This document shows positions 19,524 to 26,309 of a stretch of 32,049 nucleotides of DNA, one piece after another. A program made the translations under genes and the position numbers. The stretch spans positions 1-32,049 of the forward strand of contig JACOVG010000003.1 of NCBI GenBank assembly GCA_016177405.1, in the 5' to 3' direction. The notes under the pieces were generated by a model. That model saw nothing but the letters and a program-made list of their open reading frames with translations. It ran no database searches and was not told the DNA's origin. The first letter of the stretch is position 1; each line of letters opens with the position of its first letter. This DNA is from Candidatus Omnitrophota bacterium (GTDB lineage Bacteria; Omnitrophota; Gorgyraeia; 1-14-0-20-64-10).

Positions 19524-22500
19524 ATGAAGGCGCAACCCATCACCGCGAGAGGATTAGCGCTCCTTCTAAGCCTTTCCCTTGGCTTTCCTCCGGGCGCCTC
19601 GGCGCTCCGCCCAACCGGCCTCGAAGAGTCGGACTCCGCCAAGGAAAAACTGCTCGAATCCCTCACCGACAGCTCCGACATCGCGCGCCCCGCCGCCGGC
19701 CTCGAGGAACCTCCCGTTGTCTCGACGATCACCAGGTTTTTCCGCTTCCCCACGCAATTGGACTGGCTTCTGGCACAGATGACGCCGAAGGTGGAAGGTC
19801 AAGAACCGGTGGTCATCCTATGCCTGGGCAGCGGGGCGAAGGAACCGGCCTCCATCGCCTCTTCCCTCTGGGAAAGGTATGGCGAGATGCCCCAGGGGAG
19901 GGTTGTCATTCATGCCGTGGATTCTAACGATGGAGTTTACCAAGAGATGCTTCGCCATTTTGAAAAAGGAGAAGCTTTCGATCTTTTTCTAGAGGCAGAC
20001 TCCAGGCCAGGCATTGGCAAGAGGCTTATCAGACTTAACGAAACCATGCTGCACTGGAGACAATGGATCAAGCCCGTCCATTCTTCTTTGGAGAATGTCC
20101 GGGAACTTTACTTCCAGGCCGACGCGGTGTTCCTTAACATGGTGGCTTATCAAGTTAGAGATAGGAAGAAGGTGCGTGAGTTGCTAGCTCAACTGAAAGA
20201 GGGGGCAAGGATATATACCCGGTCTGAAGATGCCCAGCTCCTGGACCTGAAGTCTGATTCCCGATTTTACGTTCTAAATGATTCGAAGGACCCGGAGTGG
20301 GTGATGGTTTTCCAGCGCGCCGGGCTGGAGGAATTGAGTTCTCGGGCGGGCAGACTGGATGCGGAGCTTAAGAGGCTGGCGAGCGAAGCCGAGGAACTCC
20401 AATGGCTTCGAGACTTCCTTCGGGAGGAAGGAATCACGCTGGAGGACCCTTCCATCCGGTTTGGCATACACCTCGGATCCAGCGTTCTTGGCTCCAGCTC
20501 TCCTCCCGCGATAACGCACCTGTACAACCGTGTTCCGGCATGCCGGGCTCCCTTCGCGAAGGCGCGAATACGCCTGATCTCCATTCCTCGAAATACCACC
20601 GAAGCGGAGCTCCCGGAAATTCTCCGAGCGATCGAGGAACACCCTCGAATCGTTTTGGTCACCGCTACCCAGCCGCACAAGATTAAGGTGGGAGCGTGGG
20701 TCAACCGATGGGATCCTCAAGAATTGCCGGCCACAAACGTCCTGATTCTTCGGGATCCACAAGGAAAGCTCCTTGACGTTCGCGGAACGAATTCAGACGG
20801 GCCGGGCTTCGTGGAGCAATATAAGAAGGTCTGGGGTGCACGGCAAGGAAGAATCGGAACGTTTGAGGGAAAGAAGGTGGTGCTTTTAGGCGGCTGGGGC
20901 GGGCTGGGGCAGGCTCTAACGACCTCCGTGCTGAAAGAGAAACCCCTCGAGCTCATCATCAGCGAAATTGACCACCCAGAGAGGACCCTTGAACAGTCGA
21001 GGATGCAGTTTGAAGAGATGCTGGATCGTTTCTCAAGCCAGGGCGGAGAACGGCTCAACGCCACCATCCTGCGGGCCTACGACCCCCGAGATCCCTCTAA
21101 GAACGATCCGGAACTTCTTCGGCACATCCGAGAAGCCGAGATCATCATCAATGCCACCGGTCTTGGAATGGAGAAGAATGATCACCGCTCCCCTCTTACA
21201 GATCCAAGCGTCTTGGGTTCTCAACAAGAGGTGTTCGACTCCATTTACAGAACCAAAAAGGGAGAACCCCGGCCGGTAACGCCATTTCTGCAGCAAGCCT
21301 GGGACGCTGGAGTCCGAAGGGTCTTTAATGGCGTTGGGCTCTACGTGAGGGATTTCGCCTTGGAAGCAGAGTGGCTGGTTCGGGAACTTACAGGTGAGAC
21401 AATTCAGCGCGATCCCATTCACGAGGAGATGTACCACTGGGCTCTCCAAAACCGAGGTCTCAAGGAAGCGAGGGATATCCTCTCCGCCGGGCTGGAGGAG
21501 AAGACGGCGTTGGGCCGACACGTCGACCGGATGGAGCAGGCCATCAAGGAACGCCGCTGGGATTCCTTGGGTGACTTCTCCAAAGAGCTGATGGAGGCGG
21601 CAATTTCCGTCCTTAAAACAGAAGAAGCGGGGAAGGACTTGAGTTCTTTCTGGGAACTCGATGAGGCGGTTTGTTCGCTCCAGGCGCTTCCCGCAGAGGG
21701 TTTACCGCGAGAAGAAGCTGCCTTGAAGATTCTCCGGAGGTGGCAAGCCAATGCCGTCGCTCTCTTGGTGACGACCGCCACCCTTTCCGAGAAGGCGGCC
21801 GAGGGATTCCTGAAAGATCCTGCCTCCCTGGAAGGGCACCTTTGGTTTGTCCTCGATTACCTCTGGGGCAGGCTGCGAATTGCCAACATGGATCGCCTGG
21901 TTTTCTCGAACCAAGAAGTGGCCTGGGAATTCTGGGCAGATGCCTTCCAGGTTCTGACCTGGACCACTCCTCCTGAAAGATTTGATCCTACCCAGATAGA
22001 AGTTGAAGCGATCAGAAGGACGATGCCTATTGAGACCTTCCCCAGCTTGTTAAAAGCTCCGACCCTTGGCCCGGAGAGCGCGAAGCCCTTCTTTGTTCCT
22101 CTGGTTCAACAGATGGGAGAAGCTCCGTTCTTCCTGAAGAAGGATCTTCTCTTGAGGCGCCAGGCCGCGGCGATGAACCTGTCCGCCGTCTTTTACAGCT
22201 TCGCCTCCCGCGTGGCGGGGGAATTGCGCTTAGAACAGACGCGCGCCTTCTTTGATCGGCAGGCCCAGGCGCGGTATCAGCAGGCCGCTGGCGGAGAGAA
22301 TTACCCTTGGAGGCCGGCATTCCAAGCTGTTGTTGCCGAAGAGGAAAGGAAAAACCAGGCGGCAACTCTGCCAGCGCCCAAAGAGGTGATGTGGAAGGTG
22401 GGGGATCGGGTGGCGATGCGCGATCCGTTTTCCGGAAAAGACCGGGTGAGGGTCATTGACGAGGTGGATCCTAAGAACGAACGGGTTCATCTGGAAGGAG

Positions 22501-25500
22501 ATCCTTCCGGGGACCGGGTGAGTTTTAAGATTTTGTCCCGTTTCAAGCGCCTTCCGCGGTCTGGGTTGGAGGAGGATGGGATTGTTCATTTGGAGGGTTT
22601 AAGCTTAGAGAGGGTGGAGGGGATGTTGAAGGGGCATGCGCCGCAAGCGCTTACCTTCTTTTGGGATCGGGAAGGAAAGCCGGCAGAGCCGGAGACCTTT
22701 CCGTGGAATTCCGAGAGCGACTTCCAAGCGTTGGCGCGTGAAAGATTGGGGCAGGGAGCCGACGCCATCCTCTACGCGGTGACCATTCACCGGTTTCCCG
22801 GAGGCCTCCAGGTGGGTTCCCGTCTCACCCACGCGGCTGTTGCTGCCTATCGAGGTTCTTCCTCATCAAATCTTCTGCACGATCTCTCCTGGTACTTGCG
22901 AAATGTGGTTGAGGCGTACCCAGGCCCTCTGGAGAAAATCGTTCTCGTGAATCCAGCGGGGGAAGAGAAATTCATGCCAGCCGCATTCAGCACGGAATCT
23001 CTAAGGAGCTGGTTGAGGGAAGATTTTCGGCGGCTTAGGATTCCGCGAGAGGAATTGGGGCAGTGGCAGACCAGGTTGAAGGTGATTCCGGGAAGCGGCT
23101 TGACACCTCCTCATCTGCGTTTGACGGTGGAGTACCAAGGCACCTCCGGCTCGATCTTAGAAGAAGCAAGGAAGGTTGCCCAGGCGGTGGCGCGCCGTTA
23201 TCCGCTTGCCTATGGCGGAAAAAAACTCCTTCAGGGTTACCTTTCAAGTGACGAGAAAGAGCGCTTGAAAACGATGGCTGCCATGGCCCGAAGCCTTTTT
23301 GAAATGAGCCAGAGATCTCAACGGGGTGAACGAATAGTGGATGCTGACCACGCCATGCGGATTCTGGCGGCGGCTCAAGCGGGGGTCAAGTACGGGCTTC
23401 CATGGCTTCAAATGGAGACGGTGGAAAGGTACCTGGAGGGAAGGTATGACCTCAAGCGGGCCAGGTTAAACTTTCCCCGTCGGCTGGAGAAAAGGGCGGA
23501 AGAGATCTTGAAAGAGGCCGAGAAGCTCCTGAAAGAGGGGACGCGTTTGAGCGGCCAGAAAACCCTTCAAGCCGTCCCTAAAGAAAAGACAAGGGAAGCG
23601 GTTGCGGCTCCTCCCAAACATCCCCTCCCAAGCTCTCCCCTGGCGGAAGCGGTGAATGAATTGTTTGGCGAGGATGGCAAGCTTGAAATCCCGGTTCCTT
23701 CGGATGCCGCCCCCCATGGTCCTGTGGGGGCCGCCGGCGGCCGCTCGGTTGCCGGCAAGACGGCTTATGGCTCTTTCTTGTTGAAGGCCGAGGCCGGGAT
23801 GCTGGAGAATCAAGATCCGGCTGTTTGGAGGGAGAAGGTTCCCGCGGCGCGAATTACGTACCGGCAAAGCAGGGCGCTTATCTCGAGAGACTTCCCGTGG
23901 ATCCGGCAGGTTCAATTCCGAATGGCTGCCCCCGTTCAAACGGATTGGGGAACGCTGAATCCGGTTCTGTTTCCCATCCATGATCGGTCTCGAGCCCGGG
24001 AGATGGCGATCACCTTCCCCTTGCCATGGGTTGGGTTGGACCAGCCCGGGCCTGTTCGGGCGGTCTTGGAGGCCCGCCTCCCCGAGGTCTTGCTGGAAGA
24101 AGAAGCAGATGCCAGAACTGACGACTCGAGACTCATCTTTGCCACAAGCGAGGAACCCTCCGCCGGGCTGCCCCAAAAATGGGCTCTAGTTTATGAGCCA
24201 CCTGAAGGTGGTCTAAAAACTTCGGGGTTGGAGGAGCGGGGGATCAGAAAACTGCTTGTCTTCGCGCCGGGGTTCGTTCAAGGGGCAATCGGGGATGCCG
24301 TGAAAAAGTGGCGCTTGGACTCACCGAGCACCGAGGTTGCCTATGTGGAAGCCAAAGAGCAAGTTCCAGACAATCCCCAGGCATACCCGGACGCGGTTTT
24401 CATTGTGGTGCAGGATGGCAGCTCTTGGGACCTGCTGGAGAAGCTCTTCTCCTTGGCGGCCCACGGGGTTCCGACGGCGCTCCTTTGCCCGCCCTCTTTG
24501 ATGAACGAGGAAAGGATCTCCTCGGCCTACGTGAGGGTAGCGTCACTGGAGGCAAACCCCCTTTTCCTCCACGTGGAAGACGGTCTCGCGCAAGAACCCA
24601 AGCTGATTCTTACGGCAGGGCAGGTTCTCAACCGGCTCGATTTCGCGGCCACCGCGGGCGATTCCGGGATGGATTTGGCAAGGATCCGGCTGGCGGCAAG
24701 GAAATTCGCCAGGACTCTTCAGGAACCCCTGGGATCCATTGGCGAGGGCCTCACGAAACTTCGCCGGATCACCAACTCTTGGAAAGAAAAGTTACCCCGA
24801 GAAATGCCGGCGGAGGCGGAGGGGGCCCTACGGGAGATCTCTTCTTCCCGGGAGGAGATCTCCCGGGTTCTTCAAGTGAACAGAGAGAATCGACCATCCG
24901 AATTGAGCCGGCTCATCGGCTATGAGCTGACCAGCGCGGTCAACGCGCTCGACCTGGTGCAGTTCGCGACGACTCCAGAAAAGGTTCTCTCCCATCTGCC
25001 TACCATTGAGGTAAGCTTCCAGCACATCCTGGCTGTTTTGGATGAGCTTCAATCCTGGGAGCAGGTTCGGATGGCGGGCGACCCCTTCTTTCCCTACCTT
25101 GCTCTGGCAACCTCCGACACCATTTCCCTGCCGGTGGGGACCTACGCGTATGCCGTGGCAGGGATACGGGTCGTTTTAGGACCCATCAAAGAAGATGGCG
25201 GTGAGACAGCCGGAGAGAAGGAGGCTGCCGGGGTTGAAACTACGGCAGGGAATCGATCCTACCACCACGGCCAGAAGCCGTGGGCGGAGGTGGTAAATGA
25301 GCATCGCCAGGTGACTCGGCTTATCTCCCAAATGAGAGGCTGGCCCCTTGAGGAAATCCATGCCGCCATCGCCAATCTGGACTTCTTCGCCGCTGGGTTG
25401 TCCCAAAAAGGGGCTCCAGTTTATGGGCCGCCTAAAGGTGGCCTAGAAACTTCGGGGTTGGAGGAGGGGGTGCTGGGGGGAGTGATGGCGCGGATGCCGG

Positions 25501-26309
25501 ACCCAAAGAGTTATTCCGATGTAGAAAAGTGGCTGGACGCGGTGCACGGACCGGCCCCAATTACGGGTTATCCGCTGGCGGATGATGTGGCGTGGGGGTT
25601 GTTGGCGCGGAATTACGACTCTCCAGAAGGGAAGAGATCGGCGTTTTGGAAACAATTGGCGGAGGAAGTTTCCGGCAAGGCAGGGCAATTGAAACCCCTT
25701 GAGGTCCTGTGGCTGGCGGAGATATTCGAGCATCTGACCAAGCAATACGTTCCTGAAGAAGGCAGGGGGGCTGTTGCTGAAATTCTTGATCTGGTCGTAA
25801 AGAGAAGAATTCCGGAGGCCGCGGAAAATGTGAGGTTTGAGGAGGTGAAAGGGTTTGAGTTCCCTGATACCTTGCCGGGCTTCCTTCTGGAGAAGGAGGG
25901 ACTTCGATTCGCGCCCCTGTTTGCCCTGATGCGCGCCAGGATGGGCCGCATCAAGATGCCTCCCTTTGCGGGAGTTGTAGAGACAAAGAAGGAGAAAGCA
26001 GCCCTGATAGAGATCTTGTCGATTTCCGACAAGATGCTGCCGGAGGAGCGAGCCCAGGTGGTAGAGGCAAAAAGGATTTTAAGAAGGATGATCCAATCTG
26101 CCGAGTCCTTCGGGGGAGGAGAGAAAGGCTACGAAGAAGCCACCCGGTTGGCAGAATCCATGTTGCTCGGTTTAGTTCTTACGCCCATTAAGGAAGCTGA
26201 ACCCAACTTGCTTAGGCAACTGAACCAACTCCTGGGCCGCTTCGGCTACCGGCTTTCTCCTGATCGCGCCACGCAGGAGGCGGCGCTCATCCTGCTTTAC
26301 GCCGCGTAA
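19524..26309 (+). CDS. Giant (2261 aa) multidomain protein with signal-peptide-like N-terminus, seven GLEE motifs and an AroE-like internal domain
   Basis: Single ORF; MKAQPITARGLALLLSLSLGFPPGASA|LRPTGLEE N-terminus; GLEE at aa 32, 59, 267, 656, 1014, 1568, 1978; AroE-like motifs at about aa 312-640. Confidence 0.85.
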   Translation: MKAQPITARGLALLLSLSLGFPPGASALRPTGLEESDSAKEKLLESLTDSSDIARPAAGLEEPPVVSTITRFFRFPTQLDWLLAQMTPKVEGQEPVVILCLGSGAKEPASIASSLWERYGEMPQGRVVIHAVDSNDGVYQEMLRHFEKGEAFDLFLEADSRPGIGKRLIRLNETMLHWRQWIKPVHSSLENVRELYFQADAVFLNMVAYQVRDRKKVRELLAQLKEGARIYTRSEDAQLLDLKSDSRFYVLNDSKDPEWVMVFQRAGLEELSSRAGRLDAELKRLASEAEELQWLRDFLREEGITLEDPSIRFGIHLGSSVLGSSSPPAITHLYNRVPACRAPFAKARIRLISIPRNTTEAELPEILRAIEEHPRIVLVTATQPHKIKVGAWVNRWDPQELPATNVLILRDPQGKLLDVRGTNSDGPGFVEQYKKVWGARQGRIGTFEGKKVVLLGGWGGLGQALTTSVLKEKPLELIISEIDHPERTLEQSRMQFEEMLDRFSSQGGERLNATILRAYDPRDPSKNDPELLRHIREAEIIINATGLGMEKNDHRSPLTDPSVLGSQQEVFDSIYRTKKGEPRPVTPFLQQAWDAGVRRVFNGVGLYVRDFALEAEWLVRELTGETIQRDPIHEEMYHWALQNRGLKEARDILSAGLEEKTALGRHVDRMEQAIKERRWDSLGDFSKELMEAAISVLKTEEAGKDLSSFWELDEAVCSLQALPAEGLPREEAALKILRRWQANAVALLVTTATLSEKAAEGFLKDPASLEGHLWFVLDYLWGRLRIANMDRLVFSNQEVAWEFWADAFQVLTWTTPPERFDPTQIEVEAIRRTMPIETFPSLLKAPTLGPESAKPFFVPLVQQMGEAPFFLKKDLLLRRQAAAMNLSAVFYSFASRVAGELRLEQTRAFFDRQAQARYQQAAGGENYPWRPAFQAVVAEEERKNQAATLPAPKEVMWKVGDRVAMRDPFSGKDRVRVIDEVDPKNERVHLEGDPSGDRVSFKILSRFKRLPRSGLEEDGIVHLEGLSLERVEGMLKGHAPQALTFFWDREGKPAEPETFPWNSESDFQALARERLGQGADAILYAVTIHRFPGGLQVGSRLTHAAVAAYRGSSSSNLLHDLSWYLRNVVEAYPGPLEKIVLVNPAGEEKFMPAAFSTESLRSWLREDFRRLRIPREELGQWQTRLKVIPGSGLTPPHLRLTVEYQGTSGSILEEARKVAQAVARRYPLAYGGKKLLQGYLSSDEKERLKTMAAMARSLFEMSQRSQRGERIVDADHAMRILAAAQAGVKYGLPWLQMETVERYLEGRYDLKRARLNFPRRLEKRAEEILKEAEKLLKEGTRLSGQKTLQAVPKEKTREAVAAPPKHPLPSSPLAEAVNELFGEDGKLEIPVPSDAAPHGPVGAAGGRSVAGKTAYGSFLLKAEAGMLENQDPAVWREKVPAARITYRQSRALISRDFPWIRQVQFRMAAPVQTDWGTLNPVLFPIHDRSRAREMAITFPLPWVGLDQPGPVRAVLEARLPEVLLEEEADARTDDSRLIFATSEEPSAGLPQKWALVYEPPEGGLKTSGLEERGIRKLLVFAPGFVQGAIGDAVKKWRLDSPSTEVAYVEAKEQVPDNPQAYPDAVFIVVQDGSSWDLLEKLFSLAAHGVPTALLCPPSLMNEERISSAYVRVASLEANPLFLHVEDGLAQEPKLILTAGQVLNRLDFAATAGDSGMDLARIRLAARKFARTLQEPLGSIGEGLTKLRRITNSWKEKLPREMPAEAEGALREISSSREEISRVLQVNRENRPSELSRLIGYELTSAVNALDLVQFATTPEKVLSHLPTIEVSFQHILAVLDELQSWEQVRMAGDPFFPYLALATSDTISLPVGTYAYAVAGIRVVLGPIKEDGGETAGEKEAAGVETTAGNRSYHHGQKPWAEVVNEHRQVTRLISQMRGWPLEEIHAAIANLDFFAAGLSQKGAPVYGPPKGGLETSGLEEGVLGGVMARMPDPKSYSDVEKWLDAVHGPAPITGYPLADDVAWGLLARNYDSPEGKRSAFWKQLAEEVSGKAGQLKPLEVLWLAEIFEHLTKQYVPEEGRGAVAEILDLVVKRRIPEAAENVRFEEVKGFEFPDTLPGFLLEKEGLRFAPLFALMRARMGRIKMPPFAGVVETKKEKAALIEILSISDKMLPEERAQVVEAKRILRRMIQSAESFGGGEKGYEEATRLAESMLLGLVLTPIKEAEPNLLRQLNQLLGRFGYRLSPDRATQEAALILLYAA
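24171..24230 (+). repeat. In-frame 60-bp imperfectly palindromic insert, copy 1 (PQKWALVYEPPEGGLKTSGL)
   Basis: 52/60 identical to 25401-25460; flanked by SAGL before and EE after. Confidence 0.8.
25401..25460 (+). repeat. In-frame 60-bp imperfectly palindromic insert, copy 2 (SQKGAPVYGPPKGGLETSGL)
   Basis: 52/60 identical to 24171-24230; flanked by AAGL before and EE after. Confidence 0.8.

Follow-up and report, generated by a model that had tools for sequence, protein, structure and literature searches.

A probable palindromic mobile element shared by tRNA-Ala gene starts and in-frame GLEE codons of giant ORFs in an Omnitrophota genome

Introduction

Rickettsia palindromic elements (RPEs) are sequences of about 105-150 bp found in many unrelated genes of Rickettsia, with their target duplication given as '?' (PMC2229807; PMC10969869), and they also occur within RNA genes, namely those for tmRNA and the RNase P M1 RNA (PMC2229807). 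In-frame insertion outside Rickettsia is represented, among the work cited in PMC2996958, by the protein-coding palindromes of Wolbachia and Methanocaldococcus jannaschii. Two further groups of short repeats invite comparison: MITEs (RUP, NEMIS, ERIC, YPAL), most of which end in TA, carry terminal inverted repeats, and are believed to rely on a transposase for movement (PMC2229807), and REP elements, small imperfect palindromes that sometimes lie within ORFs, fall into the GTAG and CGTC superfamilies, and are linked to RAYTs (PMC3733652).

Here, we describe a 60-bp element in a genome of the phylum Omnitrophota, two copies of which the initial annotation of this DNA had likened to RPEs, a parallel that holds for the mode of action but not as membership. 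As with RPEs, there is a palindrome with a long stem-loop, in-frame insertion into ORFs, a used frame free of stops, orthologues without the insert, and occurrence at RNA genes as well as in ORFs (here at the 5' ends of tRNA-Ala genes). Unlike RPEs, it is 60 bp long, occurs in Omnitrophota, and stands solely at GGG(Y/A)TG, in GLEE codons or at the start of tRNA-Ala genes, where repeats mark its junctions; an exact tail pattern revealed no RPE sequence kinship in GTDB, a kind of pattern that would miss a diverged relation. The element thus resembles RPEs in how it works but falls outside them, given its smaller size, the lack of sequence relationship in the comparison made, and its apparent target. 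With the palindromes of Wolbachia and Methanocaldococcus jannaschii it shares the kind of insertion, in other phyla, a likeness drawn from their description. Like MITEs, it is short, non-autonomous, and dispersed, with direct repeats at its junctions, but an alignment of the copies has no conventional terminal inverted repeats or TA ends. Like REP elements, the copies are small imperfect palindromes, some of them inside ORFs; unlike REP elements, they have no GTAG or CGTC tag, and no Y1 transposase was found in the genome.

Results

Two copies in one giant ORF and seven in the genome

The window, by which we mean the whole stretch of 32,049 nucleotides analysed (contig JACOVG010000003.1 of assembly GCA_016177405.1), belongs to an Omnitrophota MAG of 1.70 Mb in 35 contigs that is 93% complete. 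The initial annotation had claimed two 60-bp segments with 52/60 identity and seven of eight differences being transitions, each following (S/A)AGL and preceding EE in frame. The coordinates and counts were reproduced: the palindromic segments lie at 24171-24230 and 25401-25460, differ at 8 of 60 positions (seven by transition; BLAST E = 5e-22), and both stand in frame in a single ORF, where they read SAGL-PQKWALVYEPPEGGLKTSGL-EE (copy 1) and AAGL-SQKGAPVYGPPKGGLETSGL-EE (copy 2). This ORF has no Pfam match, and no phage-protein homology was found for a segment of it. The features of the window are these:

19524-26309, forward strand: host ORF of 2261 aa, with a hydrophobic N-terminus resembling a signal peptide and seven GLEE motifs
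22563-22574, forward strand: uninterrupted native SGLEE (GGGTTGGAGGAG), an example of an unoccupied site in the 2261-aa ORF
24165-24170, forward strand: GGGCTG, left junction of copy 1 (GL codons of the native SAGL)
24171-24230, forward strand: element copy 1, 60 bp, 20 codons (PQKWALVYEPPEGGLKTSGL), covariance-model score 79 bits
24171-24183, forward strand: copy 1, hairpin 1 (YCCC-A5-GGGR type)
24184-24227, forward strand: copy 1, hairpin 2, a long palindrome whose closing pairs use GGGG of the right junction
24225-24230, forward strand: GGGTTG, right junction of copy 1, beginning the regenerated GLEE
25395-25400, forward strand: GGGTTG, left junction of copy 2
25401-25460, forward strand: element copy 2, 60 bp, 20 codons (SQKGAPVYGPPKGGLETSGL), 86.8 bits, the top score in the genome
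25401-25413, forward strand: copy 2, hairpin 1
25414-25457, forward strand: copy 2, hairpin 2 (fold of the whole copy, z = -4.2)
25455-25460, forward strand: GGGTTG, right junction of copy 2, beginning the regenerated GLEE

A BLAST search of the genome itself brought the count to seven full-length copies (E = 7e-24 to 5e-10 for the other copies), and a covariance model built from these seven recovers the same seven, with no other match of comparable score. Four copies are coding and lie in three giant ORFs: two in the 2261-aa ORF of the window, one in a 2783-aa ORF on contig C23, and one in a 6168-aa ORF on contig C11. The other three are each flush against the mature 5' end of a tRNA-Ala gene. 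The length is 60 bp, or 61 bp at one tRNA copy. Copies at tRNA genes differ from one another at 11-16 of 60 positions, compared with 6-10 of 60 among coding copies; in a tree of the seven copies, support is at most 55% everywhere, and a direction from tRNA to gene is not readable from it.

The occurrence of copies at GLEE sites in ORFs holds throughout the coding set: all four copies, in all three ORFs, have the same element frame and split the motif between (A/S)AGL and EE. Frame 1 of the coding copies is without a stop. The element-encoded peptide looks free of constraint, with 5-9 non-synonymous and 1-2 synonymous codon changes per pair and with dN of 0.12-0.24 against dS of 0.06-0.14 (dN/dS of about 1 or more). 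The native GLEE sites in all three host ORFs showed no remnants of the element.

A common target and repeats at the junctions

GGGYTG stands on both sides of six of the seven copies, and GRGATG on both sides of the seventh, at tRNA-Ala(TGC), whose two junctions share the ATG peculiar to that tRNA. Beyond the copies in the window, the junctions are as follows:

C23 copy: GGGCTG on the left, GGGTTG on the right
C11 copy: GGGCTG on the left, GGGTTG on the right
tRNA-Ala(CGC) copy: GGGCTG on the left, GGGCTG on the right
tRNA-Ala(GGC) copy: GGGCTG on the left, GGGCTG on the right
tRNA-Ala(TGC) copy: GAGATG on the left, GGGATG on the right

On its left, the element runs from GGGYTG into YCCC; on its right, CTTCG is followed by GGGYTG and then, downstream of the junction, by GAGGAG (the EE codons) or TAGCTC (the tRNA). 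The site common to both settings is GGG(Y/A)TG-KAG, which is present in the tRNA-Ala start (GGGGCTGTAG or GGGGATGTAG) and in the codons for GLEE (GGGYTGGAG). The pattern GGGYTGKAG has 209 sites in the genome, compared with 64 for the reversed pattern, and those in the regions read are mostly GLEE codons. The duplicated GL codons that had been proposed from the sequence alone are the GGGYTG held in common with the 5' end of tRNA-Ala.

The right junction is GGGTTG in all four coding copies and the left junction is GGGCTG in three of them, the native GLEE codons having mostly CTG. At coding sites the element seems to bring its right end along, which disagrees with a simple target-site duplication of the kind seen at tRNA-Ala(TGC). 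Two of the tRNA copies have 12 bp (ACTTCGGGGCTG), and not 6-7 bp, in common with their left flank, perhaps a vestige of a tandem unit that once stood there.

Two hairpins with covarying pairs

Each copy folds as two hairpins, a small one of the form YCCC-A5-GGGR and a long one of the form CTCC-AGTTT...AAACT-TC-GGGG in a single-strand fold. Six copies were folded; the energy lies 3.2-5.6 SD below that of shuffled sequences for five of them and 1.95 SD below for the sixth, the decayed copy 1. Counted over the named structure, the share of paired cells is 95.5%, compared with 92.4% on average after shuffling, and double changes occur in two of the four pairs of hairpin 1 and in one pair of hairpin 2. 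Compensatory substitutions are thus present, and are clearest in the small 5' hairpin, which was absent from the earlier description. With seven sequences, the evidence that the hairpins covary is moderate. The proposal that the stem differences between copies 1 and 2 keep pairing through wobble pairs holds for positions 17, 30, and 42, by G-U pairs, but not for position 26, where the A of copy 1 breaks the pair with C43, nor for position 46, which is unpaired.

Copies at tRNA genes

The element stands directly at the 5' end of each of the three tRNA-Ala genes (anticodons CGC, GGC, and TGC) and of none of the 28 other distinct tRNAs (31 read in all); picking the three tRNA-Ala genes out of 31 at random has a chance of 1 in 4495. 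The tRNA-Ala(TGC) copy is located in the 16S-Ile-Ala-23S spacer. At each of these genes the element ends at position -1 and forms part of the 5' leader: at tRNA-Ala(GGC), the order is a leader of 13 nt, GGGGCTG, a stretch of 53 nt that begins with TCCC and ends with CTTC, and a second GGGGCTG, with which the tRNA starts. A known RNA family was ruled out, as the Rfam 15 matches nearby are to tRNA, rRNA, and tRNA-overlapping models and none falls on the element. To the left of the tRNA-Ala(CGC) copy (contig C28, locus L060, around 1430-1447), the sequence CCCAAAAACTTCGGGGCTG resembles an element unit with its middle deleted, which suggests that it may be the trace of a former tandem pair.

A second set of large hairpin elements, which we call family B and which is unrelated to the 60-bp element, was observed with its 3' arm ending at or within a few nucleotides of tRNA 5' ends. 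At least four genera (G000, G002, G003, and G006) have it, next to tRNAs for Met, Pro, Gly, Cys, His, Lys, Phe, Thr, Gln, and Arg, with six copies in the genome of the window (G000; at Met, Gly, Cys, His, Lys, and Pro) and nine loci in relatives. At tRNA-Phe of G002 it is about 220 nt long (fold z = -7.9). The hairpins are conserved, and the closing stem varies with compensatory changes; there is no Rfam match. Some copies adjoin other genes, one of them reading into a prepilin-like GFTFIEIL start. In the genome of the window, the end of contig C31 and the start of contig C2 have identical sequence upstream of tRNA-Cys and tRNA-Lys, both with family B copies, which is probably an assembly break at near-identical repeats. 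We found no report of a hairpin family flush with tRNA genes in these bacteria.

Empty sites

The tRNA-Ala(GGC) genes of three sister genera (G001, G003, and G005) are element-free: their promoter is the same (TTGACA...TAGACT or TAAACT), and the leader after it, 11 nt long, runs directly into GGGGCTGTAG. Among the coding sites, an insert-free orthologue was found for one: G005 has an orthologue of the 6168-aa C11 ORF (51% identity over 555 aa) with a plain QAGLEE at the insertion point, so that FMQAGLEEPPADSEAAVDVIDG / FMQAGLEEPPADSEAAVDVIDGTTTLVLNR in G005 stands against SAAAGL(20 aa)EEAAESEAAVDVIDG / EEAAESEAAVDVIDGTTTLVLNR in C11. These empty sites support the initial reading of the 60-bp segment as an insert and not as ancestral sequence. 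For both copies in the window and for the C23 copy, the alignments with relatives lie outside the insertion points and give no empty-site orthologue; the case for insertion at these three sites comes from the identity of the element and from the motif.

The element had no match in 58 relatives, among them eight genera from its own family; the 85,488 species genomes of GTDB r220, own record excluded, have no match to a tail pattern that fits all seven copies; and viral contigs, phages, and plasmids have no element match. With all known copies in a single genome, movement between strains is not seen.

The GLEE motif of giant ORFs

The three host ORFs contain 7, 8, and 8 GLEE motifs (4613 aa of the C11 ORF were read), where composition predicts 0.17, 0.21, and 0.34, a 24- to 40-fold excess. 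(A/S)GLEE is found 2-8 times per giant ORF, both in the window (19617-25466) and in ORFs at seven other loci. Where Pfam domains are found in giant ORFs, they sit between GLEE motifs:

1057-1281: TPR, between GLEE at 1040 and 1447
1504-1748: Metallophos, between GLEE at 1447 and 1816
1879-1955: Fic, between GLEE at 1816 and 2002
1781-1983: NTP transferase (weak match), between GLEE at 1740 and 2040
From 2708: PIG-L (weak match), after GLEE at 2684

The motif is also present in genomes of the same family; in three other families of the class, the giant ORFs that were checked lack it. (A/S)GLEE appears to behave as a family-specific domain delimiter of secreted-looking giant proteins, and it may perhaps be a linker or a processing site. 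We found no report of a GLEE domain delimiter of giant proteins in these bacteria.

Discussion

We conclude, with a probability of roughly 80%, that the seven copies represent a short, non-autonomous, site-preferring palindromic mobile element of 60 bp with two hairpins. Such an element would insert in one orientation at GGG(Y/A)TG-KAG and leave GGG(Y/A)TG on both sides, so that the target would set the reading frame, the 60-bp length would preserve it, and the 3' end would re-encode TSGL and thereby restore GLEE downstream. With the frame kept and GLEE restored, an insertion would merely lengthen an inter-domain linker, and the position of GLEE at domain borders would make insertion there tolerated, the TSGL end before EE leaving a complete motif. 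The copies would then persist as near-neutral passengers. At the tRNA-Ala genes, RNase P would be expected to cut off the element with the 5' leader. Mobilisation would presumably depend on an enzyme that acts on the hairpins in trans. Counting against this reading are the lack of any identified transposase or recombinase, with no Y1_Tnp match in the genome, the restriction of the element to one genome, the mismatched left and right junctions of the coding copies, the 12 bp shared at two tRNA copies, the poorly supported tree, and the missing empty-site orthologues for three coding copies.

The chief rival is that a functional leader hairpin of tRNA-Ala, serving processing or regulation, arose once and spread among the tRNA-Ala genes by gene conversion, the coding copies being accidental by-products of microhomology-mediated recombination between GGGGYTG of the tRNA leader and GLEE codons, with no mobile element involved. 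In its favour, the element is on every tRNA-Ala gene, the tRNA copies show covarying hairpin pairs, the first GGGG of the tRNA takes part in the closing pairs, which could compete with the acceptor stem, and tRNA copies have diverged more than coding ones. However, the element is missing from the same loci in sister genera, which shows that the family can do without it, and rare microhomology events would hardly yield four exact 60-bp insertions into coding sequence that all have the same junction. Since the tRNA flanks differ outside the element, conversion tracts must also have stopped near the junction each time, and we regard this history as possible though doubtful. Yet another explanation, a useful 20-aa linker or processing segment that is ancestral or selected and was duplicated within giant proteins, would account for the location of all coding copies at GLEE, which marks borders where domains are predictable. 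Its amino acid sequence evolves freely, however, other GLEE sites and the G005 orthologue are without it, and as the sole explanation it is refuted by the same DNA standing before three tRNA genes, outside coding sequence; an ancestral domain is rejected on the tRNA copies and the empty sites together, and we consider any such origin highly improbable.

A REP-type element moved by a Y1 transposase (IS200/IS605-like or RAYT) and inserting 3' of a fixed tetranucleotide would be consistent with the imperfect hairpins, the single orientation to the target, and a right end seemingly carried with the coding copies; CTCC at the 5' foot is paired with GGGG at the right end, which may resemble the pairing of a guide with a cleavage site. 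Against it, Y1_Tnp (PF01797) has no match in the 93%-complete MAG in a search that was positive in five control genomes, the tags of the two REP superfamilies (PMC3733652) are lacking, and repeats of GGG(Y/A)TG on both flanks are not required by such a mechanism. We rejected Y1 transposase mobility on the absence of PF01797 from the genome and judge a REP-type origin improbable.

Returning to the site-preferring mobile element, one extension, which we put forward tentatively and consider rather unlikely, is that in this Omnitrophota family a shared mechanism recognising the tRNA start, or the pre-tRNA, places both the 60-bp element and family B precisely at tRNA 5' ends; GLEE codons would then mimic the tRNA-Ala start and would have let the 60-bp element escape into proteins as linkers.

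To our knowledge, in-frame palindromic insertions have been mainly a curiosity of Rickettsia and Wolbachia, and we know of no target rule for them. The Omnitrophota element is a case from a distant phylum with an explicit, testable target common to tRNA-Ala starts and domain-border codons. The choice of this target may let the element enter genes harmlessly, and the target rule offers a simple reason why such elements could enter proteins without harm.
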